Origin: Planctomycetaceae bacterium
GTDB lineage: Bacteria > Planctomycetota > Planctomycetia > Planctomycetales > Planctomycetaceae
DNA: 64,000 nt
NCBI GenBank assembly: GCA_021732785.1
Contig: JAKFUG010000008.1
Location: 62,001-126,000, forward strand
Direction of reading: 5' to 3'
The first letter of the stretch is position 1. Every line of letters starts with the position of its first letter. Positions 10,934-57,688 of the stretch are shown in pieces. Below the pieces are notes generated by a model. It was not told the origin of the DNA, ran no database searches, and saw only the letters and a program-made list of their open reading frames with translations. Made by a program: the position numbers and the translations under genes.

Positions 10934-12234
10934 GTTTCACGCAACCAACGTCGGGAACTCTGTGTGCCACTGGCTCCGCCAGTGTTCTTTCCACGGGGCC
11001 GGAAAGCTGTCATCAATCAGAATTCAAGACACTGGCTGAGCCAGTGGCACACCGGAACTCGCGAATCGTCTCCACGTGGCGGAATGCGGTTTTGGTGGCG
11101 ATGGTCACGCTCACTTTTGCCGGCTCGTTGCGTGCGGCCGAGCCGCTGAAATCTCCCGACGATGACAGTTGGGCATCGTTCCGCAAGAACATTTCTCAGA
11201 CCGGGGTGGCGCATTCGCCGTTGCCGGACAAACTCGAACTCTTGTGGCACGTGGAACTCGGCGAACAGGTCGTCGCCACCGCGGCCATTGTGGGCGAGCG
11301 GGTCTACGTCCCCTGTTTGTCCGGCGAACTCGTCTGCCTGGATCGCAAAACCGGCCAGCGCGTGTGGACCTACAAATCGGTGGAGAAAGTCGAACCGAAT
11401 TCCTTCGCACCGGGGTTCAAATCGTCGCCCACCGTCACGGCAACCTGCGTGTATCTCGGCGATGAAGACGGCCTCTTCCACGCCATCGATCGGGCCACCG
11501 GTCAGAAGAAGTGGACCTTCGAGACGCAAGGCGAAATCTACAGTTCCGCGGCCGTGGTCAACGGACGCATTCTGTTCGGATCGTACGACAACTATCTCTA
11601 CTGCCTGAAGGAAGCCGACGGCACATTCGCGTGGAAGTTCCAGACGGAGGGTTACGTCCACTGTGCTCCGGCGATTTCGGACAAGTACACGTTCATTGCT
11701 GGATGCGACGAACATCTGCGGGTCATCGACATCGAGACCGGAGAATTGTTCGCCGACACGCCGTTGCAGACGTATCTCATCGCCTCTCCAGCGGTGATTG
11801 GAGACATGCTGTATGTCGGAACGTATGCCAGTGAAGTGGTCGCCGTCGACTGGCGGAAATCCGATGTGAAGTGGCGTTACAAAGCCGGCGCGGGAGATTT
11901 TCCGTTCCACTCCTCCGCCGCCGTGACGGACAAGATGGTGATCGTCGGCGGTCGTGACAAACTCGTCCACGGCATCGATCGCGTCACCGGCGAGAAGCGG
12001 TGGACGTTCGCCAGCCGCGCGAAGATCGACAGTTCTCCCGCCGTGATCGGCGACCGGGTCTTCATCGGTTCCAACGACGGCAATCTCTACGAACTCGGTC
12101 TCGCCGACGGAAAAGAACGCTGGAAATTCAACGCCGGCAAACCAATCTCCGCCGGTCCCGCCATCGGTGAAGGCGTGCTCGTCATCGGCAGCGAATCGCG
12201 CGACGGCAAAGTGTATTGCTTCGGGAAGAAGTAA
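10909..12234 (+). CDS. Secreted PQQ-like beta-propeller (BamB-like) protein; N-terminus crossed by a REP pair
   Basis: Exported propeller with about eight ~40-residue blades ([65 protein letters not shown]), resembling BamB-type scaffolds. The true signal sequence is around [25 protein letters not shown]. The start is uncertain: ATG at 10909 has GAGGAA at good spacing and overlaps the dehydrogenase stop, giving 441 residues, but translation would then run through the REP pair at 10961-11052. An alternative is a GTG near 11045 inside the right REP arm, or an ATG at 11101. Together with 4728 and 7967 this makes three paralogous propellers in 7.5 kb. Confidence 0.85.
10961..11052. repeat. REP-pair, family 1, copy 2
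   Basis: Left unit TGTGTGCCACTGGCTCCGCC-AGTG (10961-10984) and inverted right unit (11030-11052) separated by 45 bp. It lies just after the dehydrogenase stop and is read through in frame by the next propeller gene if that gene starts at 10909. Confidence 0.9.
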
Positions 12235-35288: not shown

Positions 35289-36275
35289 CTACGCCGCCTT
35301 CCGGACCGATTCGAACGCCGGGATCGATCGTTGCTCGAAGTTCAGCGTGTTGCGAATCGCATAATTCGGCATGCCGCGGACTTCAAAGTAGATGCGGGCG
35401 CAGAGTTCACCCAGCATCCCGAGCACCAGAAACTGCACGCCAACCATCGCGGCGACGGCGGTGAGCATCAACAGCGGATTGCCGGTCATGTCGACGCCGT
35501 TCATCAGCTTCATCCACAACGTGGCGATGCCGGACAGGCCGCTCGCCGCGCCGCAGAAGAGGCCGATCATGCCGAACAGCTTCATCGGGCTGGCGGAGTA
35601 ATGGATGAAATACTTGACCGTCATCAGGTCGAGAATCACACGGGTCGTGCGCGAGAGCCCGTACTTCGAGACGCCGTGTTGCCGAGCGTGATGGTTGGTG
35701 ACCACTTCGCAACACTTCGCTCCGCGCCAGTGCGCGAGGATGGTGATGAAGCGGTGCATCTCGCCGTAAAGCTGCAATTCCTGGGCGATTTCCGTTTTGA
35801 TGACCTTCAGCGCACAGCCGAGATCCTTCACCGGGAACCCGGTCACCTTCGAGATCAGCCAGTTGGCCATCACCGAGGGTAACCGCCGATGCAGAAACGC
35901 GTCCTGCCGTTTTTTTCGCCAGCCGTGAATCAGGTCATAGCCTTCATCGAGCTTGGCGAGCATCATCGGGATATCGTTGGGGTCGTTCTGCATGTCGCCG
36001 TCGAGAAGCACGGTCACTTCCATCGACGCGGCTTGTATCCCGGCCTGCATCGCCGCGGTCTGGCCGTAATTCTTGCGGAATTCGATGACTTTCACGCACT
36101 GATCTTCGCTCGCCAGCTTGGCCAGGGCTTTGGTCGAGCCGTCTTTCGATCCGTCGTTGACGAGGATCAATTCGTACGGTTGATCCAGCGTCTGGAGCAC
36201 ATCGGTCAGCGCCCGGTGCAACAGCGGGATGTTTTCCTCTTCATTGTAAATCGGTACGACCACCGACACGCCCAT
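35289..36275 (-). CDS. Family 2 glycosyltransferase, polyisoprenyl-phosphate type (DPM1/ArnC-like)
   Basis: 328-residue membrane glycosyltransferase. GT-A domain: VVVPIYNEEENIPLLHRAL, VNDGSKDGSTKAL, YGQTAAMQAGIQ, the metal-binding LLDGDMQNDPND (DxD region) and GWRKKRQD. The C-terminal ~80 residues hold two membrane helices typical of transferases that load a sugar onto undecaprenyl phosphate. Start ATG at 36275 has AGGGA 6 nt upstream; a longer frame starts at 36305. Such enzymes usually feed GT-C transferases or flippases; candidates in this window are at 52672 and 55559, but distant. Confidence 0.92.
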   Translation of the reverse strand: MGVSVVVPIYNEEENIPLLHRALTDVLQTLDQPYELILVNDGSKDGSTKALAKLASEDQCVKVIEFRKNYGQTAAMQAGIQAASMEVTVLLDGDMQNDPNDIPMMLAKLDEGYDLIHGWRKKRQDAFLHRRLPSVMANWLISKVTGFPVKDLGCALKVIKTEIAQELQLYGEMHRFITILAHWRGAKCCEVVTNHHARQHGVSKYGLSRTTRVILDLMTVKYFIHYSASPMKLFGMIGLFCGAASGLSGIATLWMKLMNGVDMTGNPLLMLTAVAAMVGVQFLVLGMLGELCARIYFEVRGMPNYAIRNTLNFEQRSIPAFESVRKAA

Positions 36276-36390
36276 GATGCATCCCTGCGCAATAACCCAC
36301 GGCACCGCCCCAATCCGTGGGCGATGATTTTCCGCCAGTGTGGCAGAAGAGCCGAAATCGGTAAAGACGAATCTGGAGTGGGCATCATTG

Positions 36391-36555
36391 GGGGTGGCTC
36401 AGATGGCGTGCAGCCATCTGGGGCGGCGCAGCCGCAAAGAGGTTTTGTTACAACGGGTCCGAGTTTGGAACAGTGTCGTTATTTGGACGATTTGCGTGAT
36501 GGCCTCTATGTGGCTGCGCCACCCCAGATTGCCAGAGGCAATCTGAGCCACCCGG
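36391..36555. repeat. BIME-like repeat A flanking the RAYT gene
   Basis: 165 bp. The outer left unit (GGGGTGGCTCAGATGGC...GCCATCTGGGGCGGCGCAGCC) and the outer right unit (GGCTGCGCCACCCCAGATTGCC...GGCAATCTGAGCCACCC) are inverted copies of one palindromic REP unit, separated by about 75 bp. About 90 percent identical to repeat B at 37109. Confidence 0.92.
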
Positions 36556-36578
36556 ATTTGTTAATCGCGGAATCTGTC

Positions 36579-37094
36579 ATGTCCGATCGCCGCCGCATTT
36601 TGGACAGCGAACTCCACGCTCACTTCGTTACGTTCTCCTGTTACCGCCGTCGGCAAGCACTGGAAGAAGACCATCCCAAACGGATCGTTCTCGGAACCTT
36701 GAGCAGCCAGCTCCGCGAGCACAACGCCACATGCATCGGCTTCGTGATCATGCCGGAACACGTTCACGCGGTCGTCTGGTTCCCCCAACCGCACCAATTG
36801 AGCCACTTCATGCAGGGTTGGAAACGGCTCAGCAGTCGCACGCTCAAAGAATGGTTCCGCGTCCACCGCCCGCAGTATTACGCGGCTTCCGAAATCGCCG
36901 AACGCTTCTGGCAGCCGAAGTATTATCCGTTCGAGATTGACTCGCAGGAAAAACTGCGCGAGAAGGTGGGGTACATGCACATGAACCCGGTGGTGCGTGG
37001 ACTGGTGCAACGCCCCGAAGATTACCGCTGGAGTTCCGCCCGATGGTGGCTGCAACGCCGGTCCGTGGGCGTGCCACTGGGATGGATCGACTGA
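36579..37094 (+). CDS. REP-associated tyrosine transposase (RAYT, Y1 family)
   Basis: 171-residue Y1 (HUH) transposase, a single-strand DNA nickase. The HUH motif is MPEHVHAVV (H61, H63) and the catalytic Tyr is Y132 in GYMHMNPVVRGLV, followed by the RAYT-type RPEDYRWSSARWWL tail; a conserved HFVTFSCYRRR block opens the domain. Length fits RAYTs rather than full IS200 elements with tnpB. The frame is open upstream to 35889, but the ATG at 36579 gives the family N-terminus (RRILDSELHAHFVTF). Flanked on both sides by REP pairs A and B. Confidence 0.92.
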   Translation: MSDRRRILDSELHAHFVTFSCYRRRQALEEDHPKRIVLGTLSSQLREHNATCIGFVIMPEHVHAVVWFPQPHQLSHFMQGWKRLSSRTLKEWFRVHRPQYYAASEIAERFWQPKYYPFEIDSQEKLREKVGYMHMNPVVRGLVQRPEDYRWSSARWWLQRRSVGVPLGWID

Positions 37095-37108
37095 CAGGCT
37101 CAACAAGA

Positions 37109-37270
37109 GGGGTGGCTCAGATGGCGTCCAGCCATCTGGGGCGGCACAGCCGCAAAGAGGTTCTGTTACAACGGGTTCAAGTCTGGAACCGTGTGGTGAT
37201 TCGGACGATGTGCGTGATGGCCTCTATGTGGCTGCGCCACCCCAGTTTGCCAAAGGCAACTGAGCCACCC
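37109..37270. repeat. BIME-like repeat B flanking the RAYT gene
   Basis: 162-bp near-copy of repeat A in the same orientation, with scattered substitutions (for example GTCCAGCC for GTGCAGCC, CAGTTTGCCAAAGGCAACTG for the right hairpin). The substitutions in the right hairpin are paired (GATTGCC/GGCAATC becomes GTTTGCC/GGCAA-C), keeping the stem. It ends 5 bp before the end of the next gene. Confidence 0.92.
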
Positions 37271-37274
37271 GTCG

Positions 37275-37826
37275 TCATTTGGGTTTTCCTTCCGTCGCTT
37301 GCTCTTGCGATGTCACCACAACGACCAATTCGGATGTGAACGGCCGAAAGTAATAGGGATTCCCAACGATTGGAAAGTCAGCATCCTCGCCACGCTCCAT
37401 AGGTCGGATTTGAACACTCCCGGTTTCATAGACGGTCATCGTCCAGACTTGATTGTCGAGTGACGCCCAATCCTCGAAGTCGGGTAGGGGGTTCTTGCGT
37501 CGGTATGTCGCGGGGCGAATCTGGCCAATGTTGAACTCCACTTTGCCTTCAAACCGAACACCGTCCACTTCTGTCACAGTAAAACGTGGTGAATTGTCTT
37601 TGAGAACGGTTCCCTTCTCTTTGCTGACGGGAATCGACCATCGTCCCCGAACCGTGAGTTTTTGCCCCAGCGGTTTGCCAAGTTGGCCGATCAGAGTCAC
37701 CGTCTTTCCGATATCACTGACACGAATATGGAGCGGCTCGGGCTGCGTTTGAGCGACCAGCATGGGAACCATGATCGAAATTCCGAAGACTGCGGCTGCG
37801 AGTGAAATTCGTGTAATCGGTGACAT
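37275..37826 (-). CDS. Secreted protein of unknown function
   Basis: 183 residues. Signal peptide MSPITRISLAAAVFGISIMVPMLVAQ, then a beta-rich domain of about 155 residues: HIRVSDIGKTVTLIGQLGKPLGQKLTVRGRW, FTVTEVDGVRFEGKVEFNIGQIRP, WTMTVYETGSVQIRPMERGED. The repeated short beta segments and GVRFEGKVEF might indicate an OB- or Ig-like fold; this is inference. No family recognised. Its stop lies right at the edge of repeat B. Divided from sucD by the terminator at 37911. Confidence 0.65.
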   Translation of the reverse strand: MSPITRISLAAAVFGISIMVPMLVAQTQPEPLHIRVSDIGKTVTLIGQLGKPLGQKLTVRGRWSIPVSKEKGTVLKDNSPRFTVTEVDGVRFEGKVEFNIGQIRPATYRRKNPLPDFEDWASLDNQVWTMTVYETGSVQIRPMERGEDADFPIVGNPYYFRPFTSELVVVVTSQEQATEGKPK

Positions 37827-37910
37827 CGTGATGACCTCGGCATGGTGTCGATAGCATTAGAATTACGTTTCTGATCCTAACAATTGCACGGGTTGACCGC
37901 GAAACGCAAA

Positions 37911-37936
37911 ACCCCCGGTTGCGGACAACCGGGGGC
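37911..37936 (-). terminator. Intrinsic terminator downstream of sucD
   Basis: Read leftward: AGCCCCCGGTTG / CAACCGGGGGT stem with a 4-nt loop, then TTTTGCGTTT. It lies 35 bp past the sucD stop and before the next leftward gene. Confidence 0.88.
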
Positions 37937-37970
37937 TAAGTGAGCGGTGTGAAAATGTGGACAAGGGAAC

Positions 37971-38876
37971 TTACTTCCGTCGGGCGATGGCTTCTTTGAC
38001 GGCGGTGCCCATGTCGGCGGGGCTGCGGGCGACGACCACGCCGGCGGCTTCGAGGGCGGCGATCTTTTCTTCTGCCGTTCCCTTGCCACCGGAGATGATC
38101 GCTCCGGCGTGACCCATCCGCTTGCCGGGAGGAGCCGTCTGACCGGCGATAAACGCAGCGACCGGTTTCTTGACGTGGTCGCGGATGTACTCGGCGGCTT
38201 TGATTTCCGCGTTGCCGCCGATTTCGCCGATCATCAGGATTGCTTCGGTCTGGGGATCGTTCTGGAACATTTCGAGGAGTTCGATGTACATCGTGCCGAT
38301 GATCGGGTCGCCGCCGATGCCGACGGCGGTCGATTGTCCCAGGCCGACGTTGCCGAGTTGCCACGCGGCTTCATAGGTGAGAGTGCCGCTCTTGCTGATG
38401 AGGCCGACGCCGCCGGGCTTGTGGATGTAGCCGGGCATGATGCCGATCTTCGCCACGCCGGGGGTGATCACGCCGGGGCAGTTCGGGCCGATGAGCCGGC
38501 TGTTCGGATAGTTATCGTCGAGTTGCTTCTTCGTGCGGGCCATGTCGATGACCGGGATGCCTTCGGTGATCGCCACGATCAACTCAATCCCAGCGTCCGC
38601 GGCTTCGAGGATCGCGTCTCCTGCGAACGGCGGCGGCACGAAAATCAGCGAGCAGTTCGCCCCGGTTTTTTTGCGGGCATCTTCGACGGAATCGAAGACG
38701 GGGAAACCGTCGACCGTGGTGCCTCCTTTGCCCGGCGTGCAACCGCCGACGAACACGTCTTCGCCCGGTCGATGCTCCTGGGCATACGCCCGGCATTGCT
38801 GACTATGAAACAGGCCCGCCTTCCCGGTGATGCCCTGACAAATGATCTTCGTATTGCGGTCAACCAGAATGCTCAT
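37971..38876 (-). CDS. sucD: Succinyl-CoA synthetase subunit alpha
   Basis: 301-residue alpha subunit of the TCA-cycle enzyme that makes ATP (or GTP) from succinyl-CoA, ADP and phosphate. Seen: [21 protein letters not shown] (CoA-binding), [48 protein letters not shown] and the phosphohistidine loop [17 protein letters not shown]. The start ATG at 38876 matches family N-termini; a longer frame exists from 38975. Unusual context: sucC, normally directly upstream, is not here; instead an IS4-type element begins about 175 bp upstream. Terminator downstream at 37911. Confidence 0.96.
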
Positions 38877-39025
38877 ATCGCTGCGATCGCTCTTTCCAGT
38901 CCGAGAAATTTTTCCTATCCGCAGAACGGCGACGCGGTTCAGAAAACCACCGCCGGGAGCGCTTTCGGAAAGCATATCGCTGCGCCGTGGGGATGCCTAG
39001 TCGCGGGGGATGACCTTGTAACCCA

Positions 39026-39045
39026 GCCCGGAGCGCAAGCGACGG
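39026..39045. repeat. GCCCGGAGCGCAAGCGACGG short dispersed repeat
   Basis: One of three copies in the window (others 41201-41221, inverted, and 43473-43494 with one change). Lies six bases outside the left end of the IS4-type element. Confidence 0.7.
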
Positions 39046-39050
39046 CATGA

Positions 39051-40627
39051 CGTGGCACACTACGCCGTTAACCCTTTTTGCATGTCATGTCCGAAGTTGT
39101 TTTGCGTGGGCGACTTGATTGGGAGTGGCCGTGGTGATGACCGGCGGGCCGGGTGGGGGATCGTATTTCTTTCGTGGATAGTCACGACGGGTTTTGTTTC
39201 TCCGTGTGTACTGGTCAATGAGGGCGGCGTCGAGCAGTTCCCCCAGAGATTCGCCGGGTTCGGGAACGCTGTTGTGGTACCGCATGGCGGTGCGGTAGGC
39301 GCGCAACACGCGGGCCACGCTGAGGCGATCGGGCGGAATGTGGCGTCGGGCGAGGTGATGTTCGGCATGCAGCAGCAGAGCCCACAACCCCAACATGGAC
39401 CAGTGTGCCTCACACTCGACATGGTCGGCCTTGTGGCTGCGCAGCTTGTGGCGGTCGAAGGTCCGTTTGAAATGCCGGTAGTACAGTTCGATGCCCCACC
39501 GCAACGTGTAAATTTCGGCGATCTGACGGTCATTGAGCCGCGCTGGGTCGCGCACGGATGTGAGCCAATACCAGGGGTGACGGGCTCCCTGCACGACGAC
39601 CAGCCGCAAGACCAGCGGAGGCTGGTTCTGTGCGGCGGCGCGACAGGGCCAAACGGAGACCGTGCTCCCCGATTCGCGCACGAAGCCGAGCTTCTTCAGC
39701 AGTCGCACGTTGGACCCGACACGAATCACAAACTCCCGCGAGCCGTCCAACATCGCCGTCCAAAACTCGTAGCCGATGAAGTTCGCATCGCAGGCCACCA
39801 ACGCCTCGGGGGGAAGCGCCGCGACCATCTCCCGCAGATGGTGCCGTTCACTGCTGTCAGAAGGGCCGCACCGCCAATCCCAGGGAAGTCCGGTTCCCGC
39901 ATGCCACAGCGTGGTGATCCACAACGGCGGGCTGTCGGCCTTTTTCCCCTTCGCGTGCTTCACTCGGGCCGTCAGCGAACGAGAGCGGTGCTTCCGTGAC
40001 CGCGTTCGACCAGCCTGCTTCCGGCGTTTCCGCCGCGACTTTTTCGGGGAGAAGCGGCCTTCGTTGGAGGCCGTTCGCGGCAACCCCAACCGGCTGCCAT
40101 CACCGCCGAAGATCGCGTCCCCAAACCGCCGGAATCGTGCTCGCAATGCGGTCTGCATCCGCTGGCGTAACGCGACCTTCAGCGCGCCCATCAACGGCGC
40201 GGTCCAACGCACTAGCAGTTTGACAAACGCCTGGTATGAACTGGACGCCGGGACGCTTTGTGGTCGCCATTGAGCCACAATCCTGAGCGCCGTGGAAAAC
40301 CGCAGCAGAAGCGACGGCTCCTCCGCCCAGGCCCACAACAGAGCCGCGGCAATCAACCCCCGCGCGCTCCAGCGACAATCTCCCCGCAACGTAATCGATT
40401 GCAGGTCGATCCCGTCGAACAACCAGTCCACCGCGGCCGACAAGTCTTGAGCGTGCGAACGCGATGAGTTATGAACCTTCCGGTCTCGATGCGACATCCC
40501 CGATTCCTTTCGGGTGAGATTTCGATTGATCCTGCGGTCTTGGTCAACACAGGATGAACGAAACTCTCAATCGCATCGAGACTTGTTTCAGCACCTTCCA
40601 AAAGGGTTAACGGCGTAGCGTGCCACG
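39051..40627 (-). mobile_element. Intact IS4-type insertion sequence
   Basis: 1577-bp element with 28-bp terminal inverted repeats (39051-39078, CGTGGCACACTACGCCGTTA..., and 40600-40627) matching at 27 positions, enclosing one full-length transposase on the minus strand. No clear target-site duplication is visible. Both ends and the gene look intact, so the copy may be recent or active. It lies just upstream of sucD. Confidence 0.9.
39085..40497 (-). CDS. IS4 family DDE transposase
   Basis: 470-residue transposase. DDE residues by position: D133 in GGDGSRLGLP, D237 in ACDANFIGYEF, E337 in YTLRWGIELYYRHFKRT, which is the IS4-type YREK motif (Tyr, Arg, Glu, Lys). An Arg/Lys/Ser-rich segment (KKSRRKRRKQAGRTRSRKHRSRS, about 158-180) lies between the first two acidic residues. 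Length and motif order fit a complete enzyme; no frameshift or internal stop. The 28-bp terminal repeats are its probable substrates. The IS4 subgroup was not assigned. Confidence 0.93.
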   Translation of the reverse strand: MSHRDRKVHNSSRSHAQDLSAAVDWLFDGIDLQSITLRGDCRWSARGLIAAALLWAWAEEPSLLLRFSTALRIVAQWRPQSVPASSSYQAFVKLLVRWTAPLMGALKVALRQRMQTALRARFRRFGDAIFGGDGSRLGLPRTASNEGRFSPKKSRRKRRKQAGRTRSRKHRSRSLTARVKHAKGKKADSPPLWITTLWHAGTGLPWDWRCGPSDSSERHHLREMVAALPPEALVACDANFIGYEFWTAMLDGSREFVIRVGSNVRLLKKLGFVRESGSTVSVWPCRAAAQNQPPLVLRLVVVQGARHPWYWLTSVRDPARLNDRQIAEIYTLRWGIELYYRHFKRTFDRHKLRSHKADHVECEAHWSMLGLWALLLHAEHHLARRHIPPDRLSVARVLRAYRTAMRYHNSVPEPGESLGELLDAALIDQYTRRNKTRRDYPRKKYDPPPGPPVITTATPNQVAHAKQLRT

Positions 40628-40649
40628 GCTGCTGACATCTCGGTGAGAC

Positions 40650-40826
40650 TCAGTAAAAGAAGCCATCTTTGATGATGAAGACTTCTTCCAAGATGATCGC
40701 CGCAATAAAGGCCACGAATCCGGCGAGCAGAAAGAAAATGACGAAGCCGATCTGAAGTGGTAAACCCCATCGCCATGGCGTGAACCAGTTGAAGTTATCC
40801 GGCGGCGAATCGGGATGTTCGTCCGT
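40650..40826 (-). CDS. 58-residue membrane protein, FNWFxPWRW type, apparent ACG start
   Basis: Small single-span protein: short hydrophilic N-terminus (DEHPDSPPDN), then FNWFTPWRWGLPLQ, a 25-residue hydrophobic helix (IGFVIFFLLAGFVAFIAAIIL) and a tail EEVFIIKDGFFY. It aligns with the 52-residue protein at 41005 over the N-terminus, the FNWFxPWRW motif and the helix, and even the DNA before the start aligns (TGATACAATC versus TGATAGAATC). At the place of its paralogue's ATG there is ACG, with an in-frame stop just upstream and no other standard start, so it begins with ACG or has lost its start. No family recognised. Confidence 0.55.
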   Translation of the reverse strand, partial: TDEHPDSPPDNFNWFTPWRWGLPLQIGFVIFFLLAGFVAFIAAIILEEVFIIKDGFFY

Positions 40827-40872
40827 CCCGTGATTGTATCAAAGGAAGACGTGTCGGTGGATGACGGCTGCC

Positions 40873-40956
40873 GCTGTGTGCCACTGGCTCTGCCAGTGTC
40901 TTCTCTCCGGGAATCCTTGTGATGAATCGCACTGGCAGAGCCAGTGGCACACAGCG
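40873..40956. repeat. REP-pair, family 1, copy 3
   Basis: The most regular copy: left unit CTGTGTGCCACTGGCTCTGCC (from 40874) and inverted right unit (40930-40956), 31 bp apart. It lies between the two tandem small membrane genes. Confidence 0.92.
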
Positions 40957-41004
40957 AGGAGCTTAGTCGCACGTCGAAGGTGGATATCGAACGATCGCGT
41001 CGGG

Positions 41005-41163
41005 TTAGAGAAATTTGTCTTCAAACAGCGACAAAAGGAAGAACCATACCATCATCGCGACGATCAGTAGCATGCCGCCCCATGCGAACAAATCTGACCA
41101 CGGCCATCGCCAAGGGGCGAACCAGTTGAATTCTTCTGGTACCTCGGTGCGACATTCGTCCAT
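41005..41163 (-). CDS. 52-residue membrane protein, FNWFxPWRW type
   Basis: Sequence begins MDECRTEVPEEFNWFAPWRWPWSDLF, then a hydrophobic helix (WGGMLLIVAMMVWFFLLSLF) and ends EDKFL. ATG at 41163. Paralogue of the 58-residue protein at 40650; both keep the order acidic N-terminus, FNWFxPWRW, one membrane helix, short acidic or aromatic tail. No SD-like sequence is obvious. Being single-span with a Trp-rich juxtamembrane motif, it could be a small regulator or subunit of a membrane complex; the function is unknown. It lies 77 bp downstream of the MFS/spermidine-synthase-like gene on the same strand. Confidence 0.65.
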   Translation of the reverse strand: MDECRTEVPEEFNWFAPWRWPWSDLFAWGGMLLIVAMMVWFFLLSLFEDKFL

Positions 41164-41200
41164 TCTGCGATTCTATCAAGAGAAAGCAGAGCGGTGTCAT

Positions 41201-41221
41201 CCGTCGCTTGCGCTCCGGACT
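41201..41221. repeat. Short dispersed repeat, inverted copy (CCGTCGCTTGCGCTCCGGAC)
   Basis: Reverse-orientation copy of the 39026 sequence, in the short gap after the MFS/spermidine-synthase-like gene. Confidence 0.65.
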
Positions 41222-41240
41222 GGGACGGGCTTTGTGATGG

Positions 41241-43325
41241 TTACTTCAGAATCCCGACGACGTTGTTGAAGCGGTCGGTCCAGAGTTGCGGTATCCGTGC
41301 GGAAGTCGGCGTCGCGGTGATGGCGGCCTTGATTGTAGGATCGGAAAACTCGGCGGGATCACGGGCGAGGAGCATCCAGTCGCAGCGGGCCTGGGCACGG
41401 TCGGGGCGGTTGTCGGAGTGAATCTTCACCGCGTGCAGGCCGTACCGTTCCGCGGCTCCGGCGATGACCGGCTGCAGGTCGAAATGGCGGTTCGTGATGT
41501 GGAACGCCATCGTGCCGTGGGGCGCGAGGTGCCGGAGATAGATCGCGAAGGCTTCTTCGGTGAGGAGATGGGCCGGGATGGAATCGCTGCTGAAGGCGTC
41601 CAGCACGAGGACATCGAACTGCTGATCGGGCTCGCGTTCCAGTGACAGGCGGGCATCGCCGACGACCATTTCGATCTTCGCCGCGGAGTCTTTCATGTAG
41701 CTGAAATGTTCGTCAGCCAGCCGGATGACATCGGGATTGATCTCATAGAAGCGGAAGACATCACCGGGGCGACCATAAGCCGCGAGGGTGCCGACGCCGA
41801 GACCGACCATGCCGACTTTCCGCGGTCCGGCCAGTTCGGGGCGATTCAGCAGCAGGCCGACGCCGGAGTGTTCTCCGTAGTAGGCCGTGGGGATGTTGCG
41901 TTTCGTGGGTTCGGTGAATTGCATGCCGTGAACAATGCGGCCGTGGACCATGCGGTGCATGGCGTGGTCGGGTTTGTCGGTGTCGGTTTCCACGATGCGG
42001 AGCACGCCGTAGAAATTGCGGGTGATCGCCAGTTCGCCCGGACCGCCCGTGCCTTGAGCGGCGCCGAACGTTTGCAGTCCGCCAAACACAGCGAGCAACA
42101 CGCAGCCCCAAATCCACCGCGGTTTGCCACCGGCCTGCAACCATTCGGGATCGTTCAGGAACAACCACGCGGCAATCGCGCAACAGGCAATCACCGCGGC
42201 GTGCAGTTCGAGATACTGATGAAATATCAGCGGAGCAATCACCCCGACGAGTACACCACCCGCGGCTCCACCGGCACTGGATGCCAGATAGAACGATGTC
42301 AAATACCGCGGCGATGGTTTCAGCCGGACCAGTTCCCCGTGGCAGACCATGCAGCAGAAGAACAGCGACGCAAAATGGACGGTGATCTGCGTGATGATCG
42401 GCACATCACTCGCCGCCCGCATCAACTGGGCGAGACAGACCAGCGTGCCGACGAGGGCGATGGCATACGTCCGCCGCGGGTACCACCATGCGCGATCGAA
42501 GCAGAGAATGAATGACGCCAGGTACAACGTCAGCGGCAGCACCCACAGGAACGGAATTACCGCGACATCAAGGCAGACCTGATTCGTCGTCGCCAGCAAC
42601 ATCACCGAGGCCACAGCCGACAGTCCGAACCATGCCATTCGAGTCGACCAGTTGGGAATTTCTTCAATGCTTGCCGCTTTGCAGTCTCCCCCAGTCGTCT
42701 GCTCTTCAGAAACCTCTTCCTTCCTCCGAGTCATATCCCACGCACAAACCCCGCAACACACCGCAAACGCCACAAATCCCAGCGACCACACCGCGGCTTG
42801 CGATTCCGTCGCCATCCACGGCTCAAACAGGAACGGATACGTCACCAGTCCCAGCACCGAACCGATGTTCGACAACGCATACAATCGATAAACCGCGGTC
42901 CCCGGTCGTCCCTGGCTGAACCATCCCTGCAACAACGGCCCGGTCGCCGAGAGCAGAAAATACGGCAGCCCGACGGTCGCGGCGAGCAGTCCCAGAATGC
43001 GGCCGGTGGGCAACTCCCCGCCGGTCGGTTTCCATGAGGCATCCGGCGTGATGGGCAACGATGTCAATGCAACGACCAGCAGCCCGGCATGCACAATCGC
43101 CTGCCAGCGCGGCGTCAACCAGCGACTACTCGCATGGGCGTACGCATATCCCGCGAAGAGGACCAACTGGAAAAACAGCATGCACGTGGTCCACACGCCC
43201 GGCGTGCCCCCGAACCACGGCAGGATGTACTTGGAAATGAGCGGCTGCACCTGAAAAATCAGGAAGGCACTCATCAAGATGGTGAGGGCATAAGGCCCCG
43301 CCGTCCGTCCGCGCTGTGCCGTCAT
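41241..43325 (-). CDS. Fused MFS-type transporter/spermidine-synthase-like protein
   Basis: 694 residues. The N-terminal ~470 residues hold about a dozen membrane helices beginning SAFLIFQVQPLISKYILPWFGGTPGVWTTCMLFFQ, the signature of this widespread fused family. The C-terminal ~220 residues form a spermidine-synthase-like Rossmann domain: YYGEHSGVGLLL, VGMVGLGVGTLAAYGRPGD, FYEINPDVIRLA, VVGDARLSLE, FDVLVLDAFSSDSIPAHLLTEEAF. Whether it makes polyamines is unknown; many relatives lack tested activity. Start ATG at 43325 chosen because 61 upstream residues are low-complexity repeat translation. The two small FNWF proteins lie downstream on the same strand. Confidence 0.9.
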   Translation of the reverse strand: MTAQRGRTAGPYALTILMSAFLIFQVQPLISKYILPWFGGTPGVWTTCMLFFQLVLFAGYAYAHASSRWLTPRWQAIVHAGLLVVALTSLPITPDASWKPTGGELPTGRILGLLAATVGLPYFLLSATGPLLQGWFSQGRPGTAVYRLYALSNIGSVLGLVTYPFLFEPWMATESQAAVWSLGFVAFAVCCGVCAWDMTRRKEEVSEEQTTGGDCKAASIEEIPNWSTRMAWFGLSAVASVMLLATTNQVCLDVAVIPFLWVLPLTLYLASFILCFDRAWWYPRRTYAIALVGTLVCLAQLMRAASDVPIITQITVHFASLFFCCMVCHGELVRLKPSPRYLTSFYLASSAGGAAGGVLVGVIAPLIFHQYLELHAAVIACCAIAAWLFLNDPEWLQAGGKPRWIWGCVLLAVFGGLQTFGAAQGTGGPGELAITRNFYGVLRIVETDTDKPDHAMHRMVHGRIVHGMQFTEPTKRNIPTAYYGEHSGVGLLLNRPELAGPRKVGMVGLGVGTLAAYGRPGDVFRFYEINPDVIRLADEHFSYMKDSAAKIEMVVGDARLSLEREPDQQFDVLVLDAFSSDSIPAHLLTEEAFAIYLRHLAPHGTMAFHITNRHFDLQPVIAGAAERYGLHAVKIHSDNRPDRAQARCDWMLLARDPAEFSDPTIKAAITATPTSARIPQLWTDRFNNVVGILK

Positions 43326-43423
43326 GTCCGAAAATTCCCAGGATACCGATTCTACCGCCCGTGCGGCGGTCGCAACGATGTCGCGAAAACACCACACGCT
43401 GCGTAACTCTAGCTCGCGAAATC

Positions 43424-43455
43424 GGGTTGAGGGTGAAGGGTTGAAGGTTGAGGGT
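43424..43455. repeat. GGTTGAGGGTGAAGGGTTGA low-complexity repeat
   Basis: G-rich direct repeat of GGTTGAGGGT-type units upstream of the MFS/spermidine-synthase-like gene; resembles one arm of the 23798 element but lacks the partner arm. Confidence 0.6.
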
Positions 43456-43472
43456 AAGATAGTCTCCGTCAC

Positions 43473-43494
43473 AGCCCGGAGCGCAACCGACGGG
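43473..43494. repeat. Short dispersed repeat (AGCCCGGAGCGCAACCGACG)
   Basis: Third copy of the 39026 sequence, with AACC in place of AAGC, about 30 bp before the DUF4375 gene. Confidence 0.65.
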
Positions 43495-43522
43495 TGTCCC
43501 GCTATCATTCGTGGGCTATCGC

Positions 43523-44140
43523 ATGGCAGAACTACCTCGTGAGAACCAACTGTTGGGCTGGATCCAAGGGACGAATGATCCCGAAAAAATCGCCCGGTAC
43601 ATCGCTGAATTGGAGTCGATTCCCGCCAAGTCGTTTCAGTTCCACGAGCGATGGTATTTCATTCACGGCGATTGCAATTACTCAGCGTGTTGGACGGACG
43701 AAGGCTACGATCCCGCACAAAGCCCGATGCCGCGTGACATCCAGCTTCTTTCCGCAACACGCTATGGATATGAAGACATCCTAAATGGTGGGTTTCACCA
43801 GTTTTTCTGGAATCCAGGTGGGGTATTCGCTCCGGAAATGGAGGAGTGGTTTGCTCGCACTGGCCTCTCTGACGTTGCTAGCATCATGCGAAAAGCTATG
43901 AAGTTGCTCCAACCGCTATACTCGCGGTCGCGAGAGCAACGAATGGACTTTCTCGATGCGTACACCCAGGAGCATCTCTCCGATTCGAGTCCAAGCTCCG
44001 ATTGGAATCCATTCGATGGACTCGATGACAAGTTCTACACGGCACTTCCGCGAGCTCGAATTTATCAAGCGGCTGATATCTGGTTGCGTGATGTCTGTGG
44101 AATCACATCGCTTGCCCAATCGTACGATGCCCCGCGATGA
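43523..44140 (+). CDS. DUF4375 (DMP19-like) protein
   Basis: 205 residues. The block LSATRYGYEDILNGGFHQFFWNPGGVFAPEMEEWF matches the DUF4375/DMP19 hallmark NGGFxQFFxN; the surrounding helices agree. DMP19 of Neisseria is a DNA-mimic protein that blocks a transcription factor; most DUF4375 proteins are uncharacterised and that role should not be assumed here. Start taken as ATG at 43523; a GTG four codons earlier is in frame. The C-terminus is Ser/Asp-rich in places (SDSSPSSDWNPFDGLDD). Followed by the 30-bp palindrome at 44151. Confidence 0.75.
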   Translation: MAELPRENQLLGWIQGTNDPEKIARYIAELESIPAKSFQFHERWYFIHGDCNYSACWTDEGYDPAQSPMPRDIQLLSATRYGYEDILNGGFHQFFWNPGGVFAPEMEEWFARTGLSDVASIMRKAMKLLQPLYSRSREQRMDFLDAYTQEHLSDSSPSSDWNPFDGLDDKFYTALPRARIYQAADIWLRDVCGITSLAQSYDAPR

Positions 44141-44150
44141 TCTGAAGAAT

Positions 44151-44230
44151 GTAGGGTTTGCCGAGTCTGCGAGGCGAACCTTTTGACGACGCCTAGAATT
44201 GGTTCGCCTCGCGGACTCGGCAAACCCTAC
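44151..44230. repeat. 30-bp-arm inverted repeat (GTAGGGTTTGCCGAGTCTGC family)
   Basis: Arms 44151-44180 and 44201-44230 pair at 29 of 30 positions around a 20-nt loop. It starts 11 bp after the DUF4375 stop and ends 30 bp before the ferritin-like gene, both on the same strand, so it may terminate one transcript and shield the next. No T-tract follows. Confidence 0.88.
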
Positions 44231-44259
44231 CAGATGCACCAGATGCGAAGAGCCTTTTT

Positions 44260-45666
44260 ATGACTGCCACCGTTCCACCACTCGCGGGTCTATGCACCTT
44301 CACGGAAGCCCAGCGCACGGCGATGTCCGTCGAAGATTGCGTCGCATGGATGAAGCGGCATCACTATGTGTTGCTGCGGTTACATGGCATCTTCACAGCC
44401 CGCATTACGGCGGAACCGTTGTATGAACTGAAGACCACATTCAGTCTGTGCAGTTATCTGTGTGCCGAGCACGTCAGCGCGATTCGCAAACGGGTGAGCG
44501 AACTGCGCGAACCGCCGCTCGGATTGGAGGTCGTTCCGCACGCCGGGCTGAAGTTGTGCGCGGATGAAGTCCTCGCGGCTCCCACAACGGGGGCGTTGTT
44601 GCTGGGATTGTATGAAGTCCTGCTGCCCGCGCTGGCGGAATCGTTGGATGTATACGTCGCCACGACGAATCTGCTCGCCGATGCCCCGAGTGTGCGGGTG
44701 ACGCGGTTCTGCCGGTTGGAAGTTGCGGACATGCTGGCGTTCGGTCAGCAGGCGATTGCCGCCACGGTGACCGCTGCCGAACGGACCCAACTCACTCCGT
44801 GGTTGACGATGTTGCAGACGACTCTCAACGTCGCTGGCGGGTTGGGCGGCCGTGGTACCGTCAGCGAAGAATTGCCGTCGCCAATGTTTACGGCTCAACC
44901 GTATGTTTATGACGCCGTGCCGAAGCGCGATGGAAGATTCCGCGATTCGTACAACGCGGGTGTCAATCCGGAAGCGTTTTTGTATGACGAGCGTTTCTCG
45001 CCGCGCGACAAGGTGTTGATGCTGTATTACAAGCGGCTGCGGGAAATCGATGTTCCCGAGATGATGGCGAGCATCCTGCACGAAACGGTCGGCAAACCGT
45101 GGGGGTTTTACGCCGATATGTCCCGGCAACTCTGGGATGAAGCCCGGCATGCGATGCTCGGCGAAGTCGGCTTCGTTTCGCTCGGTCTCGACTGGTCGCA
45201 GATTCCGATCAACTTCACATGGTCGCTGAATCTCAACACGCAACTCACGCCGCAGGAACGGCATGCGGTGTTGTTCTTTATCGAGCAGGGATTGATGCCC
45301 AAGAGTGGCAAGCGGTACGAATGGGAAATCGGCCAGCAGTCGGGGATTCCGTTGGCGGCGGTGTTTCAGGACTTCGATTGGGCCGATGAAGTTCTGCACG
45401 CGCAGATGGGACGGCAGTGGTATGTGTCATCGTTCGGCGATCTGAAACCCGCGCTCGAATACGGGGATCGCTGCTGGTCGAAGGTGCTCAGCCACTGGCG
45501 GGATTACATCGACCGCGGGCTGACGGAGCATCGCAATTGGTGGCCGGAGGTGTACCGCCAAGCCTGTGAACGGTGGGGTGTAACACCCGACGCTACGGCC
45601 TTGGCGTTCCACGAAACCTATGCGGACCAGCGAGCCGACTTGCGGTCCATTTCCGCATCTGGCTGA
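44260..45666 (+). CDS. Ferritin-like (possible di-iron) protein
   Basis: 468 residues, soluble, mostly helical. Two Glu/His patches typical of ferritin-like helices occur in the C-terminal half: RQLWDEARHAMLGE (ExxH, residues ~292-302) and DWADEVLHAQMGRQW (ExxH, ~373-388). Upstream, YELKTTFSLCSYLCAEHVSAIRKR (~53-76) could supply ligands for an N-terminal bundle. The overall layout resembles DUF455-type ferritin-like proteins, whose substrates are unknown. An oxidase or iron-handling role is inference. ATG at 44260; placed between the palindrome at 44151 and the Cys-rich peptide genes, which are on the other strand. Confidence 0.65.
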   Translation: MTATVPPLAGLCTFTEAQRTAMSVEDCVAWMKRHHYVLLRLHGIFTARITAEPLYELKTTFSLCSYLCAEHVSAIRKRVSELREPPLGLEVVPHAGLKLCADEVLAAPTTGALLLGLYEVLLPALAESLDVYVATTNLLADAPSVRVTRFCRLEVADMLAFGQQAIAATVTAAERTQLTPWLTMLQTTLNVAGGLGGRGTVSEELPSPMFTAQPYVYDAVPKRDGRFRDSYNAGVNPEAFLYDERFSPRDKVLMLYYKRLREIDVPEMMASILHETVGKPWGFYADMSRQLWDEARHAMLGEVGFVSLGLDWSQIPINFTWSLNLNTQLTPQERHAVLFFIEQGLMPKSGKRYEWEIGQQSGIPLAAVFQDFDWADEVLHAQMGRQWYVSSFGDLKPALEYGDRCWSKVLSHWRDYIDRGLTEHRNWWPEVYRQACERWGVTPDATALAFHETYADQRADLRSISASG

Positions 45667-45707
45667 ATCCCAGTCCGGGTTGAAACACAGCCCGCGGGCC
45701 CAAACGC

Positions 45708-45890
45708 CTATTCGCAGTACCAGGTTTGCGATTCCTGACAACAGACACAATTCGACGAGGGAGCTTCGACGCCCCCGCACATCTCACCGCTCGCGTGGGC
45801 CGGGCGTTCCCATGACGCAAACACCATGTTGACAATGGCCAAACTCACCAGGACCGCCGACAGCAAGACGTTAAAAGTATTCGATTTCAC
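45708..45890 (-). CDS. 60-residue Cys-rich secreted or membrane-anchored peptide
   Basis: N-terminal hydrophobic segment (NVLLSAVLVSLAIVNMVFASWERP) followed by a 25-residue tail with five cysteines (MCGGVEAPSSNCVCCQESQTWYCE). Start is GTG at 45890 with GGAG 8 nt upstream. The leader resembles that of the 119-residue Cys-rich protein upstream (AVLxxLxxxN pattern), so the pair are likely relatives. Last gene of the leftward cluster that includes two DUF1573-type proteins. Function unknown; disulphide-bonded secreted peptide is the simplest reading. Confidence 0.6.
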   Translation of the reverse strand: MKSNTFNVLLSAVLVSLAIVNMVFASWERPAHASGEMCGGVEAPSSNCVCCQESQTWYCE

Positions 45891-45951
45891 GATTCAGCTC
45901 CGAGGGGGGAAACCGGCCTGATTTCGGCTGTTGTCGATGGACTGCGAAGGT

Positions 45952-46311
45952 CTAACAGCCTTGCTCAACGCACATGCAGGGCAACAACGTGAGCCTCGTG
46001 GAACCGCTGCATCGGCTTCCCAGCGGACAAATCCCGCAGATGCCGTCGCAATATCCCGTCCACTGGGTGTTGGGGGCCGACACCTGACAAATATCTTCCG
46101 TCCAGACGTAATAAGGGGGTTCGGAACTGGGGCTGACCATCCACACCGAGCAGCTCCCGGGGCACTGTTCCAGACTGCAGACTCCGAAGCCGGCCGACGC
46201 CGCGTTCTGGGCATCGCCCGTCGGTAAAAACCCCGTATTCGCGGCGACGAGGGTCATCAGGACCGCCAGAAAAAGCGTGTCGAGAATGCCCCGGATCATT
46301 TGCCGTCCCAT
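45952..46311 (-). CDS. 119-residue Cys-rich secreted protein
   Basis: Signal-like N-terminus (MGRQMIRGILDTLFLAVLMTLVAANTGF) then a mature region with 11 cysteines: GVCSLEQCPGSCSVW, EDICQV, GYCDGICGICPLGSRC, LPCMCVEQGC. No conserved domain known to me. ATG at 46311 has GAGGGG 8 nt upstream, which supports real translation. 61 bp upstream of the 60-residue Cys-rich gene; DUF1573-type genes precede it 289 bp further. Exported to the periplasm or surface, likely rich in disulphides; role unknown. Confidence 0.65.
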   Translation of the reverse strand: MGRQMIRGILDTLFLAVLMTLVAANTGFLPTGDAQNAASAGFGVCSLEQCPGSCSVWMVSPSSEPPYYVWTEDICQVSAPNTQWTGYCDGICGICPLGSRCSGSTRLTLLPCMCVEQGC

Positions 46312-55558: not shown

Positions 55559-57688
55559 GTGAATCGCCCGGAACCCAATACGCAGAAAAGACTTCTGCCG
55601 CTGCAAACCGTTTGGTGGTGGATCGGCGGCGTGGGGCTGACGTGGTTGTTCTGGGGCACGCTTTGGACTGGCGGGGGGCTCGTCGGCGGGGATGTTTACA
55701 GCTACTCGCTGCCGCAGAAAGCGTTTCTCGCCGACGGATTGCAGGCCGGCGTGATCCCGCTGTGGAACAATTTGACCGGGCATGGATACCCCGTTCTCGG
55801 GGAAAGTCAGACGGGAGCGCTCTACCCGCTGCATCTTTTGGTGTATTGCCTGTGGGATGTGGGCACCGGCTGGAATGTGGTCCTGATCGTGCATTACATC
55901 GCCGCGTTTGTGGCGATGGCGTGGTGTGCCCGCACGCTCGGCATCCTCGGACCGGGGTCGCTGCTGGCCGCAATGGTGTACGTCTACGGTTGGTTCCCGC
56001 CGCGGGCCTTTCTCGACTGGGCGATCCTCGGCGGCGTGTATCTGCCCCTGGTGATCGGGTCCATTGAACGCTTTCTGCAAACTGGCCGATCGCGCTATGC
56101 GGTGCTGATGAGTGCGTCCCTCGGCGTACAACTCCTCGGCGGGCATTATCAAATTGCGTTCCTCACGTGGCTGGTGAGCGGAGCGGACGTCGTTTTTCGA
56201 TGGCTACAACTTTCGATGCCATCCCGTGTGCCACTGGCTCCGCCAGTGTCTTCTTCTCTGATTGATGAAACACATCCATTTTCAGAAAGACACTGGCAGA
56301 GCCAGTGGCACACAAATCCAACGGCCATGCTCAGTCAATCTGTGCTGACTCTGAGCATCATGTTTCTATTCGGCGTCGCGCTGGCGGCTCCGCAGTTGGC
56401 CGCGTCGTGGGAGTTGAAAGGACGCAGCCAGCGGGCCATCGTCGGCGTGGACCATGATCCCGCGTACGGACACATTCCGCCCGGTTATCTCACACAGATC
56501 GTCGCCCCGTGGTTCTGGTACGCCGCCGATCTCGACATCGACGCGGCTCTGCAACGGATGCCGCTCGGTCAAATCGCTTCCGGCACCAACCGTGTGGAGG
56601 CCCACTGCTACTTCGGCCTCGTGCCGGTGCTGTTGCTCATTGCCGGGGGACTGCTCGCGCTCCGTCGCCGGGCGGTGACGGGGAACGATCTCTTCTGGGT
56701 CGCGGTGATCATTGCGTCATTGGCGTACGCCACCGGATGGTTGATGCCCGTATTGCAGGGACTGCCGGGGTTCAGCTATTTCCGCGGACCGGGGCGGGCG
56801 TCGCTACTGGCCACGTTCGCAGTCGCTGTTCTAACGGGGCGATTGCTTGATGCGCTCATTCAACAATTCGATTCACAAGGTCTGCGCCGCGGCTTGGTGA
56901 CGATCGTGCTGGTCGCCACGACGTGGGATTTGTGGTGGACGCCGACGACGGTGTCGTATGCCGTCGCGGTGACGCCTCCGCCGATTGCGTTTCGCGATGC
57001 GAGTCCGCTTCGAAAACTGTTGCTCACGGAACCCGGTCTCGTGCGGTTGTATGCACCGGGGGCCAATCTGCCGAATGTGCTGGGGGTGGCGTCGACGCCG
57101 GTGTATCTCGGTTTCGGGCCGCGCGAGTATTTCGACCCGCAATTTACGCTGCCGGAGACTGATCCGCCCGACTTTCACGCTTTCACGCCGACGCGATTGC
57201 AGTGGCTACTGGACGCTGGTGTGACGCATATTCTCAGTTTCGAGCCGCTCGAACGGCGCGGCTGGCCGGTCCATTTGATGTGGGCCGGTGTCGATCCGTT
57301 GCTCAACCGCGCCTGGGCCCGACCGGAACCGCTGTTTCTGTACCGCTTGAAAGACGCCCCCGGTCGGTTTCGCTGGGATGCTGTCGGAGCGGGTGCCATC
57401 ACGTTGAAAGAATACGGTCCGCACCGCATCACTGTGCGAGTCGCTGTCGCAACGGCCGGGCAACTGGTCCTGACCGATCTCGCCGATCTCAATTGGTTCG
57501 TCACCGTCGACGGGCAATCCGTGACGCCGAAGGCCTCGGGAATGTACCGCGCCGTGAGTCTCACGGAAGGCGACCACGAAGTGGTTTGGTCCTACCGTCC
57601 GCGTCGCGTATATTGGGGGTTCGCCGTCAGTGGAATTGCCGCGGTGTTGCTTGCGCTGATCCCGTTGTGGCGACGCCGTGGTTTGTAA
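55559..57688 (+). CDS. YfhO-like membrane protein with in-frame REP-pair insertion
   Basis: 709-residue protein with about a dozen membrane helices and a C-terminal extracytoplasmic domain. The first loop matches the YfhO family: GDVYSYSLPQKAFLADGLQAGVIPLWNNLTGHGYPVLGESQTGALYP. Family members are thought to glycosylate lipoteichoic acid or other surface polymers in Firmicutes; a role here is inference. Residues ~223-251 (RVPLAPPVSSSLIDETHPFSERHWQSQWHTN) are the translation of the REP pair at 56226-56313, in frame, lengthening a loop between helices. Start is GTG at 55559 (AGGA about 10 nt upstream), favoured over TTG at 55523. Confidence 0.82.
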   Translation: MNRPEPNTQKRLLPLQTVWWWIGGVGLTWLFWGTLWTGGGLVGGDVYSYSLPQKAFLADGLQAGVIPLWNNLTGHGYPVLGESQTGALYPLHLLVYCLWDVGTGWNVVLIVHYIAAFVAMAWCARTLGILGPGSLLAAMVYVYGWFPPRAFLDWAILGGVYLPLVIGSIERFLQTGRSRYAVLMSASLGVQLLGGHYQIAFLTWLVSGADVVFRWLQLSMPSRVPLAPPVSSSLIDETHPFSERHWQSQWHTNPTAMLSQSVLTLSIMFLFGVALAAPQLAASWELKGRSQRAIVGVDHDPAYGHIPPGYLTQIVAPWFWYAADLDIDAALQRMPLGQIASGTNRVEAHCYFGLVPVLLLIAGGLLALRRRAVTGNDLFWVAVIIASLAYATGWLMPVLQGLPGFSYFRGPGRASLLATFAVAVLTGRLLDALIQQFDSQGLRRGLVTIVLVATTWDLWWTPTTVSYAVAVTPPPIAFRDASPLRKLLLTEPGLVRLYAPGANLPNVLGVASTPVYLGFGPREYFDPQFTLPETDPPDFHAFTPTRLQWLLDAGVTHILSFEPLERRGWPVHLMWAGVDPLLNRAWARPEPLFLYRLKDAPGRFRWDAVGAGAITLKEYGPHRITVRVAVATAGQLVLTDLADLNWFVTVDGQSVTPKASGMYRAVSLTEGDHEVVWSYRPRRVYWGFAVSGIAAVLLALIPLWRRRGL
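56226..56313. repeat. REP-pair, family 1, copy 4, inside the YfhO-like gene
   Basis: Left unit GTGTGCCACTGGCTCCGCC (56226-56248) and inverted right unit (56291-56313), 42 bp apart, lying wholly within the coding frame of the membrane protein without a stop. The translation HWQSQWHT is that of the right arm. Confidence 0.92.

Follow-up and report, generated by a model that had tools for sequence, protein, structure and literature searches.

Tiny single-helix proteins can act as accessories of membrane proteins. The membrane toxins of type I toxin–antitoxin systems are also tiny single-helix proteins, sometimes arranged in tandem, and they usually have long structured leaders. A further group, delineated in the present analysis, comprises small, hydrophobic proteins, often in tandem, in which YxLSxGP is followed by YxPL; we know of no established name for these small membrane proteins. 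Leaderless genes provide a third point of comparison. According to the accessible text of a mycobacterial study (PMC4633059), such genes lack a Shine-Dalgarno word, have a -10 box set for a transcript that starts at the start codon, and include unannotated small proteins; no codon but ATG or GTG initiated leaderless translation there. AUG is much the best start on leaderless mRNA in Escherichia coli, and ACG is not named in the accessible parts of these accounts. A survey of 260 prokaryotes that includes one planctomycete reports, in the portion available, base biases for that group that could stem from leaderless mRNA or from binding of S1 (PMC5397173). Among open-licence papers, no literature was found on the family described here or on an ACG start of a bacterial leaderless mRNA.

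The window analyzed here, a stretch of 64,000 nucleotides, carries two short open reading frames on the minus strand that would encode small membrane proteins, termed a and b. The first, at 41005..41163, has an ATG start and encodes 52 residues; the second, at 40650..40826, has ACG at the start position and encodes 58 residues. Both ranges include the stop codon, and 178 nt separate the two frames. Direct reading agrees with the coordinates, strand and lengths given in an earlier note on this DNA, which had also proposed a common acidic N-terminus, the motif FNWFxPWRW and a single helix. All three are borne out. Both proteins open with M/T-D-E followed by a common proline, FNWFxPWRW occupies residues 12–20 of each, and its core WFxPWxW (residues 14–20) lies within about 25 residues of the start. 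One hydrophobic helix follows this module directly, as judged by hydrophobicity and by single-sequence AF2 models, which place it at residues 20–51 in a (mean pLDDT 79.6) and 17–55 in b (mean pLDDT 80.4).

The two proteins align in BLASTP with 15 identities over 43 residues (E 2e-8, a value for that single comparison), and pairing by hand with one gap gives 17 identities over 51 residues. Among the 802 stop-to-stop frames of 30–80 codons in the window, b ranks first and a second for hydrophobicity, a comparison that is not circular. The DNA in front of the starts also aligns, as previously claimed: 16 of the 24 nt immediately 5′ are identical, an agreement reached by 11 of 200,000 random window pairs, with the length of 24 chosen after the alignment had been seen. 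Nucleotide differences between a and b number 27, 18 and 31 at codon positions 1, 2 and 3 (51 codons); they are not concentrated at third positions, so the codon-level evidence of selection is weak. On this shared sequence, a and b are tandem paralogues, a relationship unlikely to arise by chance.

Each frame is preceded by an extended -10 box on the same strand. In a the box is TGATAGAAT (41170..41178), and in b it is TGATACAAT (40833..40841), with hexamers TAGAAT and TACAAT, respectively, and TGn in front of both. Each box ends exactly 6 nt before the start, so both genes look leaderless, and the predicted +1 falls on ATG in a and on ACG in b. The TGA within the box of b (40841–40839) doubles as an in-frame stop just upstream of the ACG, and the interval from this stop to the motif contains no ATG, GTG or TTG, in agreement with the earlier description. 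Only one site in the genome, the one in front of a, has TTGATAnAATC at 3–8 nt from an ATG. A -35/-10 promoter scan of 40500–41400 returned no hit, with 0.5 expected. The earlier note was right that these are two paralogous tiny membrane-protein frames that contrast in ATG and ACG; it missed the -10 boxes at 6 nt from both starts, as well as the wider family, most of whose members are longer proteins.

The explanation that accounts best for these features, with a probability of roughly 0.68 as a whole, is that a and b are lineage-specific tandem paralogues, that a is functional and leaderless, and that b has lost its start. The same estimate covers leaderless transcription of both genes and their place in a family of small membrane proteins that is lineage-specific, multi-copy and centered on one genus. 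Each copy would encode a stand-alone small inner-membrane protein with one helix. The acidic N-terminus is probably cytoplasmic, an orientation suggested by the basic residues that follow the module in longer family members, and the aromatic WFxPWxW segment would sit at the membrane surface. Each copy's own extended -10 promoter would direct a transcript from the first base of the start codon, yielding a leaderless mRNA. The ATG of a would allow translation from such an mRNA; b keeps the promoter, frame and helix, and with ACG at the predicted +1 it would be translated little or not at all. The position of the -10 box, exactly 6 nt before both starts, favors a lost over a working start at the ACG, and start loss is the most likely cause of the presumed silencing of b. 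We therefore favor a functional a and a start-lost b whose helix and frame have yet to decay. When a quarter of the sites in b were changed at random, the frame stayed stop-free in 24% of runs and was also hydrophobic in 6%, so the intact frame does not date the loss. By analogy with other tiny single-helix proteins, our guess is that the role is probably that of an accessory or partner of another membrane protein.

A broader search places the pair within a family. The earlier note had looked to conservation of the motif in relatives, which fails for FNWFxPWRW itself: the corresponding DNA pattern matches only a and b in their own genome, and a slightly looser form, with R, K or one of a few other residues after FNWFxPW, occurs in 1 of 170 genomes of the bacterial family, their own, and in none of the other 169. 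Conservation does hold for WFxPWxW, which recurs in small frames of the genus. Four genomes, three from the genus and one (G031) from another, contain 22 matches versus 1 for reversed-pattern controls (G000, 7 versus 0; G001, 5 versus 1; G002, 6 versus 0; G031, 4 versus 0), and the other 55 of the 59 genomes searched contain 20 versus 19. The 22 matches sit in frames of 55–250 codons, 18 have an ATG 10–17 residues before the motif, and a hydrophobic stretch follows, as judged by eye. The sequence of these relatives runs M..LPxRIAWFAPWTW-helix, in most cases with YxLSxGP and YxPL. Their common plan starts with a short N-terminus, in which LP is frequent, and goes on to RIAWFAPWTW or a similar string; basic residues often follow, then the helix, YPLSxGP in many and a later YxPL.

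Short forms with only the module and helix are a, b and a 57-residue relative in G002, which carries EDFDWFTPWTW and has TAGAAT 7 nt before its ATG. YxLSxGP at the helix end is absent from both a and b, and both end before the position of the C-terminal YxPL. What places the pair in the family is consequently the N-terminal module, together with the helix and the 5′ DNA. A profile of 19 alignment rows that leaves out a, b and the short G002 relative places only a (E 5.7e-7) and b (2e-6) below E 1 among the 1185 frames of the window; this test is partly circular, as the rows were gathered by the motif itself. One further locus (L124, G000:C1:154732) has FAPWTW and a helix ending a 160-codon frame; it could be another short member that starts at an ATG inside this frame, or it could be where a longer protein ends.

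At E 1e-3, the full 22-row alignment of the family (A3) has matches in 74 of 170 genomes of the bacterial family. A class sample yields 62 of 397 and a phylum sample 18 of 392; the samples overlap, and the counts are lower bounds because scoring covered some, not all, of the first-look candidates. Beyond the genus and G031, almost all of the listed matches, which were not checked singly, start past the WF module and cover only the helix and tail. At eight loci of other genera (L163–L168, L176 and L177), small YxLSxGP membrane proteins stand in tandem groups of two to four. They share YPLSxGP and YxPL with the longer WFxPWxW members, in contrast to a and b, which have neither part. One of these loci, L168 in G092, has a set of three tandem members; in two of them TACAAT stands about 20 nt ahead of the ATG, with AGGAGG in the interval, and the third is similar. 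This looks like a short leader with a Shine-Dalgarno word after the promoter.

The start regions of some WF-type members show the promoter placement seen in the pair. Reading 26 members gave 22 with ATG and three with only GTG or TTG, while b alone has none of the three; b, L112 and the plus-strand members of L121 and L122, which have no ATG, were thus left out of the 22. L124 does not appear in the start-site list, and L202 and L203 appear there but yielded no row. TAnnnT lies 6–7 nt before the ATG in 9 of the 22, from five genomes (own genome, 4 of 6; G001, 1 of 6; G002, 3 of 6; G031, 0 of 3; G026, 1 of 1); by type, the positives are 8 of 18 members with exact WFxPWxW and 1 of 4 variants. 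All other distances up to 34 nt yield only three occurrences in the 22 members. As background, 501 kb of the own genome were sampled, where 3 of 318 long genes show this spacing (Fisher p 6.5e-10). The comparison is rough, because distances in the control were taken from the first ATG of each long frame, those in the members from whichever suitable ATG was nearest, and the members come from five genomes. The own-genome gene sample shows no clear -10 box peak at 6–7 nt. The arrangement is lacking in 13 of the 22 members, including all three ATG members of G031.

Shine-Dalgarno-like words are distributed the other way. None of the nine TAnnnT-positive members has one ending 4–12 nt before the start, versus 5 of the 13 other ATG members; such a word is present in 17 of the 23 distinct members that lack the WF module. 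TAnnnT at 6–7 nt is found in 1 of those 23, from G031 (p 0.004 against 9 of 22; some of the 23 are near-copies). Related small proteins thus seem to include both Shine-Dalgarno-like members and members whose promoters appear set for leaderless transcripts. The latter resemble the leaderless genes of mycobacteria as far as these are described in the accessible text (PMC4633059), including the unannotated small proteins, but here the +1 is predicted from sequence and b has ACG. The ATG/ACG pair with matching -10 boxes constitutes a natural test of the leaderless start-codon rule, a measurement we did not find for this lineage.

Of the readings that differ from start loss, the one that survives best holds that ACG is a weak working start, which would supply b in a small, constant proportion relative to a. 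This is unlikely, although b retains an intact 58-codon frame, helix and -10 box and has no other standard in-frame start: the ACG would be the first codon of a leaderless mRNA, where only ATG and GTG worked in the available mycobacterial data (PMC4633059) and AUG is much the best in the E. coli account, so far as it was accessible. By eye, no Shine-Dalgarno-like word precedes it, and the other 25 members read all have ATG, GTG or TTG. A more far-reaching form, in which b is translated from ACG at the extreme 5′ end of a leaderless mRNA, the lineage can start leaderless translation without AUG or GUG, and two paralogues are held at a fixed unequal ratio, is less likely again.

A sequencing or assembly error that placed C in the ACG, so that both genes have ATG, is also improbable, to a slightly greater degree than either form of a working ACG. 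It would need a single base, and the remainder of b looks intact; nothing speaks directly against it, with the assembly given as 99.63% complete and 1.21% contaminated. We rate as equally improbable the idea that a and b are small membrane toxins akin to those of type I toxin–antitoxin systems, kept in tandem. Their tiny size, hydrophobicity, tandem arrangement and dispersed relatives fit this idea, as does the REP-like inverted pair between them. However, no Rfam family was found in 40000–42000 (a search for described RNAs, which an undescribed antitoxin RNA would escape), the weak library matches include no toxin family, and the arrangement is unlike the long structured leaders mentioned above. 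Finally, that a and b are chance frames or non-coding repeats that are alike by accident is very improbable: the near-exact motif is absent from the other 169 family genomes, but WFxPWxW is enriched over its control with 22 motif frames in four genomes, and the pair holds the top two ranks for hydrophobicity.

Database searches add a tiny membrane-protein family with only weak, isolated matches in four profile libraries. The 22 A3 members scanned, all WF-type, gave weak matches in one member each: DUF418 (0.0044, below cut-off), VEGFR-2_TMD (0.019), three PHROGs (0.0078–0.033) and PADLOC LmuB (0.047), with a best NCBIfam value of 0.21. A PDB sequence search returned no match at E 1. Protein a alone matches 25 of 59 relatives at E 1, most of it background, the best value outside the pair being 0.0067. 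At E 0.01, a two-row profile (A1) picks out 2 of the 397 genomes of the class: that of the pair itself and G426, whose match sits in a 1508-codon frame and is taken as chance. When contigs were scanned with A1, 55 stretches matched, of which one was confirmed, in Tannerella over residues 1–11; it is also taken as chance.

An insertion sequence at 39051..40627 (minus strand) with 35-nt inverted ends (89%) neighbors the pair without being part of it, its end lying 22 nt beyond the stop of b. Its transposase (39085–40497) matches Pfam DDE_Tnp_1 above cut-off and an NCBIfam IS4 model at 105.9 bits, below the cut-off of 115. The assembly holds one full copy; two other matches are its own ends. The REP pair reported between a and b was found as a REP-like inverted pair at about 40876..40955, with no strand assigned and an 80-nt match at 87.5% in another contig. 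Such pairs (GTGCCACTGGC / GCCAGTGGCAC) lie at 10964–11050, 40876–40955 and 56228–56311 in the window, with paired sites at 10964/11040 and 56228/56301, and single sites number 14 across the 464 kb of examined genome, with 7 inside the window.

The DNA of eight family loci, compared with window positions 36001–46000, gave only short repeat matches of 30–83 nt, in three of the eight. Neighbors of family members (44 of 92 listed frames at 20 loci, the window included) match 52 Pfam families at 1e-5. Among the 25 shown, only AP_endonuc_2 and N_methyl recur, in two proteins each, and PSCyt2, PSD1 and DUF1559 appear once each. These last three are associated with the planctomycetes, and such gene content suggests a planctomycete host. 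No recurrent partner gene is seen among these 44 varied neighbors, suggesting that the proteins probably work on their own or have their partners encoded elsewhere. The neighbor on the other side of the pair, likewise not part of it, is a fused MFS/spermidine-synthase-like protein (41241..43508, minus strand). By eye, no small frame like a or b is seen among the hydrophobic frames listed beside its relatives in nine other genomes, some of these loci being cut at contig ends. Adjoining the fused gene is a 209-residue frame at 43511–44140, which may resemble DMP19/DUF4375.
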